A stretch of DNA of 49,838 bases from Cytophagaceae bacterium (lineage in GTDB: Bacteria > Bacteroidota > Bacteroidia > Cytophagales > Spirosomataceae), in contig CANGCD010000002.1 in assembly GCA_947452215.1 (NCBI GenBank), positions 1-49,838 on the forward strand, read 5' to 3'. This document shows, piece after piece, positions 6,607 through 7,019 of this stretch (its first letter is position 1; each line of letters begins with the position of its first letter). A program made the position numbers and the translations under genes. The notes under the pieces are model-generated. The model had not been told where the DNA came from and did no database searches. It was given only the letters and a program-made list of their open reading frames with translations.

Positions 6607-6637
6607 TTTGTATTTATGTAGATAATAATTAATTTTG
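6607..6637 (+). promoter_or_regulatory. Bacteroidota-type promoter for rpmE2
   Basis: TTTG (6607-6610) - N19 - TAATTTTG (6630-6637), exact match to TTTG/TAnnTTTG. Confidence 0.7.
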
Positions 6638-6643
6638 CATCCC

Positions 6644-6707
6644 GATTAAATGAAGTCCATTCCCAGGGATTTCCACTCATTTTAAAAATAGACGGCAGGG
6701 AATCGTC
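6644..6707 (+). other. Candidate structured 5' leader RNA of rpmE2 (two hairpins with complementary loops)
   Basis: Hairpin 1 TTAAATGA (6646-6653)/TCATTTTAA (6677-6685); hairpin 2 GACG (6691-6694)/CGTC (6704-6707); loop sequences ATTCCC (6659-6664) and GGGAAT (6698-6703) are perfectly complementary. Confidence 0.4.
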
Positions 6708-6721
6708 ATTATTCAAACACA

Positions 6722-6964
6722 ATGAAAAAAGATATCCACCCAGAATACAAAGAGGTTGTATTTCACGATTTATCAGCTGATTACAAATTCTTAACTCGTT
6801 CTTGCGTTCAAACAACAGAAACAACTGAATTCGAAGGAGCAACTTACCCAGTTTACAAACTAGAGGTTTCTTCACAGTCACACCCATTCTACACAGGTAA
6901 AAATGTGTTGTTAGATACAACGGGTCGTGTTGATAAATTCAACAAACGTTACGCGAAAAACTAG
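6722..6964 (+). CDS. rpmE2: 50S ribosomal protein bL31 type B (zinc-independent paralogue)
   Basis: 80 aa [31 protein letters not shown]..., lacks the CxxC zinc motifs; HPFYTGK and [10 protein letters not shown] conserved. Confidence 0.95.
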
Positions 6965-6981
6965 TATTCTTTATCGTATAC

Positions 6982-7019
6982 AAAAAAAGCCTCATCATGA
7001 CTTCATGTTGAGGCTTTTT
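6982..7019 (+). terminator. Rho-independent terminator downstream of rpmE2
   Basis: GCCTCA...TGAGGC stem flanked by A7 and T5, with inner CATG/CATG pairing. Confidence 0.8.

Follow-up and report, generated by a model that had tools for sequence, protein, structure and literature searches.

A conserved structured element almost certainly exists 5' of rpmE2, which encodes ribosomal protein bL31 type B, in the window (the whole stretch of 49,838 nucleotides analysed here), as judged from sequence comparison with its relatives. By its structure, this predicted element is a ribosomal protein leader, namely a covarying RNA 5' of a ribosomal protein gene, and very probably it regulates rpmE2 in cis. 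L31 is probably the ligand, and translation the step controlled. The element is best read as a cis-regulatory leader particular to its lineage and, most probably, as a translational operator for autoregulation by L31, whose binding is a prediction; if this inference is right, it acts as an L31 leader, and it is outside the described families.

The features of the locus are listed in Table 1. The rpmE2 product was the sole match to Ribosomal_L31 (PF01197) in the genome and, on comparison of this protein, the window is assigned to Aquirufa (Bacteroidota, Flectobacillaceae), a family that in the NCBI taxonomy also includes Flectobacillus, Arcicella, Pseudarcicella and Sandaracinomonas. The promoter proposed in the earlier note, TTTG-N19-TAATTTTG, was read where it had been placed, and a TAnnTTTG-like box was also found 5' of the leader in the rpmE2 genes of the relatives compared. 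Downstream of the gene, a strong intrinsic terminator was detected that had been overlooked by a pattern scan because its stem is interrupted. The own promoter and the strong terminator around rpmE2 thus point to a one-gene transcription unit, whose leader would measure about 80 nt from the predicted start. Directly 3' of the TTTG box (6638-6644 in the window), a GCA(N)(U)CC(C) start is shared by almost every Cytophagales rpmE2 leader, whether the conserved element is present or absent, and is perhaps the initially transcribed sequence of strong promoters.

Table 1. Features of the rpmE2 locus, in coordinates of the window
Feature	Position	Strand	Details
Bacteroidota-type promoter	6607-6637	+	TTTG 6607-6610, 19 nt, TAATTTTG 6630-6637; sequence inspection
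P1, 5' strand GAAGTCC	6652-6658	+	Covarying; strand swap 0/20000; A3 4/7, A4 6/7 pairs
UCCC in the P1 loop	6661-6664 (loop 6659-6666, ATTCCCAG)	+	Present in all distinct carriers, one with CCCC
P1, 3' strand GGATTTC	6667-6673	+	Covarying, as the 5' strand
Hairpin 2, GACGGCAGGGAATCGTC	6691-6707	+	Stem GACG(G)/(T)CGTC (GACG 6691-6694, CGTC 6704-6707), loop CAGGGAA, GGGA 6698-6701; one copy in each of 54/223 family genomes
A/U-rich spacer, hairpin 2 to ATG	6708-6721	+	12-20 nt in all carriers
rpmE2 (bL31 type B)	6722-6964	+	ATG at 6722; 80 aa, one Cys, no CxxC; PF01197 match, 96 bits
Intrinsic terminator AAAAAGCCTCA...TGAGGCTTTTT	6984-7019 (about)	+	-19.7 kcal/mol, z = -7.0

The most conserved part of the leader is hairpin 2, described in the earlier note as GACG/CGTC and found just there, which belongs to the 17-mer GACGGCNGGGAATCGTC. 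When 223 Flectobacillaceae genomes were searched, this 17-mer was present in 54 of them, from 8 of the 36 genera, with a single exact copy in each, and its reversed control pattern gave zero matches in the same genomes. Comparison of these positions with those of an L31 search revealed that all 54 carriers had it directly 5' of rpmE2. Only one base of the 17-mer, N, varied freely (A in 45, G in 5 and C in 2 of 52 distinct leaders), and hairpin 2 recurred in every Aquirufa leader read, the exceptions being one CATC for CGTC and one C at the variable base. The 17-mer was near-invariant while the L31 proteins of the eight carrier genera differed by up to about 20%, and the carriers formed one group (support 93, one change) in an L31 protein tree that, being built on 79 columns, is a rough guide only.

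Beyond the family, no exact 17-mer was found among about 310 genomes of the order, in which the matches were one-mismatch only and as frequent as those of the reversed control; in a phylum sample of 297 genomes, the exact 17-mer appeared solely in the window's own genome. The Cytophagales analogue of L31 leaders suggested previously stands as a lineage-specific leader, but one of the Flectobacillaceae and not of Cytophagales generally. Five exact matches in viral contigs lay in unrelated G+C-rich sequence and were taken as chance. The closest non-carrier on the L31 tree, a Cytophagales MAG (L044, genome G123) with an L31 86% identical, had a short rpmE2 leader without the element, marking either the boundary of its gain or a loss; as this genome has L31 without the element, the latter is dispensable in principle.

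The distance from hairpin 2 to the rpmE2 ATG was steady (12-20 nt) and covered all three reading phases, whereas that to the promoter box varied threefold, from 52 to 179 nt across carriers, which argues for a link to translation initiation and not for promoter control or a coding extension. On account of these same phases, hairpin 2 was rejected as coding for an N-terminal extension of L31; it was also rejected as a Shine-Dalgarno site, its GGGA being at least about 20 nt 5' of the ATG and thus too distant.

Regarding the upstream part of the leader, the first hairpin drawn in the earlier note (TTAAATGA/TCATTTTAA, 6646-6653/6677-6685) was not kept in the closest relatives, and the covarying stem was found to be P1 instead. 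Its sequences are wholly different between species (GAAGUCC/GGAUUUC in the window, and GAGACU/AGUCUC, UCCAAA/UUUGGA, GGAAUC/GAUUCC or ACAAUAUG/CAUAUUGU elsewhere). When its arms were swapped between genomes, the mean duplex energy went from -7.7 to -4.7 kcal/mol, and none of the 20000 permutations reached the native energy, also with 11 sequences less than 75% identical. In two register-matched subsets of the leaders, A3 and A4 (the latter joining P1 and hairpin 2, with the variable linker left out), two-sided changes were observed in 4/7 and 6/7 pairs, respectively, and the covariation scores (0.298 for A3 and 0.231 for A4) were matched by 0/500 shuffles and dropped when the partner was slid. 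A further alignment, A2, was left out, the L011 type being misaligned by MAFFT. The earlier note had named the lack of compensatory change in either stem as refuting evidence; upon examination, the first stem does show compensatory change.

RNAalifold recovered only hairpin 2 (5 pairs) from the genus alignment because P1 shifts register among species, a problem addressed by the register-matched subsets and the strand swaps. On its own, the window leader was no more stably folded than shuffled versions of it (z = +0.24), so that the single sequence is compatible with chance. A pattern scan flagged P1 as a terminator, which was rejected since no T run was found 3' of P1 in other species; a leader peptide was rejected too, as not all relatives have the ATG in P1 from which, in the window and some of them, a short frame starts.

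A second nearly invariant feature, the UCCC, was found 5' of hairpin 2 in every distinct leader, with CCCC in G121 as the single departure, and beside or within P1 in every copy. Its enrichment against within-leader shuffling was weak per sequence and is not the main evidence. Aquirufa and a close genus have UCCC presented by P1 itself, whereas elsewhere UCCC adjoins an extra helix, P2. In Aquirufa and genus g31, UCCC lies in the hairpin loop, 25-30 nt 5' of hairpin 2. The leaders of Arcicella, Pseudarcicella, g11, g12, g14 and g18 are longer, with 102-179 nt from the promoter box to hairpin 2, and in most of these six genera constrained folds had P1 enclosing P2, followed by UCCC and then by the P1 3' strand, although the folds of L152, L155, L157 and L162 deviate from this order. 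Strand swaps of P1 in the longer leaders reached the native energy in 0/20000 permutations with 14 leaders and in 14/20000 with 8 leaders. Given the P1-P2 architecture of the longer leaders, Aquirufa and g31 thus have its compact form.

The complementary ATTCCC (6659-6664) and GGGAAT (6698-6703) pointed out in the earlier note are both present in the window, but the conserved match is of only 4 nt (UCCC/GGGA), that of 6 nt being limited to few species. The free UCCC/GGGA duplex would have about -6.5 to -7 kcal/mol. Both parts are invariant in A3 and A4, the CCCC of G121 being without compensation, and as they almost never vary, covariation neither supports nor opposes their pairing. From the complementarity, the P1-side UCCC and the hairpin 2 loop are likely to pair. 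The 17-mer, the UCCC and P1 strongly support the proposal made from the window, namely a conserved and structured leader, with complementary loops, 5' of the gene for bL31 type B.

The near-invariance of hairpin 2 over 8 genera, in single copy and at rpmE2 only, together with the covariation of P1, supports a cis-acting leader, and the one-gene operon with the sole L31 gene of the genome points to the encoded L31 as the natural ligand. In the mechanism proposed, UCCC and the GGGA of hairpin 2 would form a kissing loop or pseudoknot, and free L31 would bind the conserved core of the folded P1-hairpin 2 element. With L31 bound to this core, hairpin 2 would be locked close to the margin of the 30S binding region and 30S loading would be blocked, in such a way that rpmE2 translation would be repressed whenever there is more L31 than the ribosomes need; in the absence of L31, the structure, weak and flanked by A/U, would open. 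Some ribosomal protein leaders resemble the rRNA site of the protein, although this is not required. Here, the likeness of the leader to the E. coli rRNAs was no more than chance (P 0.14-0.95), and nothing above chance was found against the parts of Aquirufa 23S and 5S compared, the 16S and half of the 23S being masked.

A cis-regulatory leader could also sense a signal other than L31, such as another ribosomal protein, a small molecule, an sRNA or temperature. Structure and conservation are silent on the ligand, and small riboswitches also use pseudoknots with short loop pairs, but this reading is unlikely given the single copy per genome and the association with the L31 gene only, as expected for self-control of one gene, and given that the near-invariant 17 nt plus 4 nt next to a freely variable P1 resemble the contact core of a small protein or RNA. 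Even less probable is a constitutive element for translation or mRNA stability, such as a standby site or a protective 5' structure, without any sensing. The fixed distance to the AUG agrees with it, as does the need of strong ribosomal protein genes for efficient initiation in Bacteroidota, where translation starts without Shine-Dalgarno pairing according to PMC9976891; nonetheless, the element is restricted to a single gene in the genera of a single family, relatives cope with short leaders of about 50 nt, and a sequence conservation this strict is unusual for a purely structural element. A DNA operator, in which the imperfect GACG...CGTC dyad would be a transcription factor site, is very improbable, as the distance to the promoter box varies while that to the ATG is steady, the conserved loop is asymmetric and a covarying RNA stem lies upstream. 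Finally, a chance match in one A/T-rich leader, a caveat of the earlier note that agrees with the shuffle-like folding of the window leader alone, is hardly credible and already refuted by conservation, considering the divergence of L31 among the carriers, the empty reversed control and the covariation of P1.

The preferred reading, an L31 autoregulatory leader, was compared with known systems. Eckert and Weinberg (2020, PMC7247131) published five L31 leader candidates, those of Actinobacteria, Coriobacteria, Corynebacteriaceae, Firmicutes and Gammaproteobacteria. As in these cases, the Flectobacillaceae element is a lineage-restricted structured leader directly 5' of an operon comprising the L31 gene alone, and its likeliest ligand is L31, but it has two conserved parts with complementary loops and belongs to Bacteroidota, whereas those are single hairpins in other phyla. 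In E. coli, bL31 has been proven to repress its own translation, and the type B paralogue can act likewise (PMC10931766); the rpmE operator, 5' of the Shine-Dalgarno site, consists of a single irregular hairpin in which there are two internal bulges (Aseev et al. 2020, reviewed in PMC10931766). Both are structured 5'UTRs by the initiation region, and the autorepression of translation by L31 known for rpmE is that proposed for the Flectobacillaceae leader, which differs in having no Shine-Dalgarno site and a type B protein. Within the phylum, the ribosomal leader candidates of Bacteroidia and Flavobacteria are those of L13, S4, S15 and S16 (PMC7247131), also lineage-specific but at different genes. 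The Rfam scan that had been suggested gave no family at the gathering score for the window, and only a weak unrelated match to RsaB at E up to 10; Rfam includes the five L31 motifs of PMC7247131 as far as curated. In agreement with the earlier note, no description of an L31 leader in Bacteroidota was found in a literature search mostly outside subscription journals.

Other motifs were observed in further rpmE2 leaders of the phylum. Spirosoma, Fibrella, Arsenicibacter and relatives (L047-L051, L191, L194, L195, L201, L202, L206) have a different hairpin at the transcript start, UCCUUUUCGG(U/A)CGG(A/C)AACCGAGAAG, with a compensatory change from C-G to U-A in L202; it is possibly another lineage-specific L31 leader. 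The rpmE2 leaders of two Paraprevotella (L101 and L102) have in common CAGACCATTACACAT(T)ATAGTTACCAGCTATAAGT, and AUAGUUACCAGCUAU may form a hairpin in them. In Hymenobacter (L073, L076, L077, L080, L087, L091, L092, L095, L097-L099, L104-L106 and L108-L110), a conserved UCCCUUCCGCAAAA(U/C)CGGCNGG(G) hairpin was detected at the transcript start, and both this hairpin and the Flectobacillaceae element have CGGCNGG(G) with an upstream UCCC, N being A, G or C in both. The likeness could be a coincidence. It is rather unlikely that a single small core (CGG-CN-GGG, in which GGG pairs with CCC) is recognised by L31 and built with different topologies across Cytophagales, as a pseudoknot in Flectobacillaceae and, in Hymenobacter, as the plain hairpin UCCCUUCCGCAAAAUCGGCNGGG where the transcript starts; if so, the same binding site would occur in both leaders, permuted in its topology.

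If the preferred reading is true, this would be the first known L31 leader in Bacteroidota, with a likely pseudoknotted architecture and located at the sole L31 gene of the genome, one of type B. As Bacteroidota ribosomes start without Shine-Dalgarno pairing, the usual logic of operators, which is to mask that site, would be inapplicable here. The cultured genera Aquirufa, Arcicella and Pseudarcicella make the leader testable, and the finding would extend a pattern in which L31 leaders have been invented repeatedly, once per lineage.
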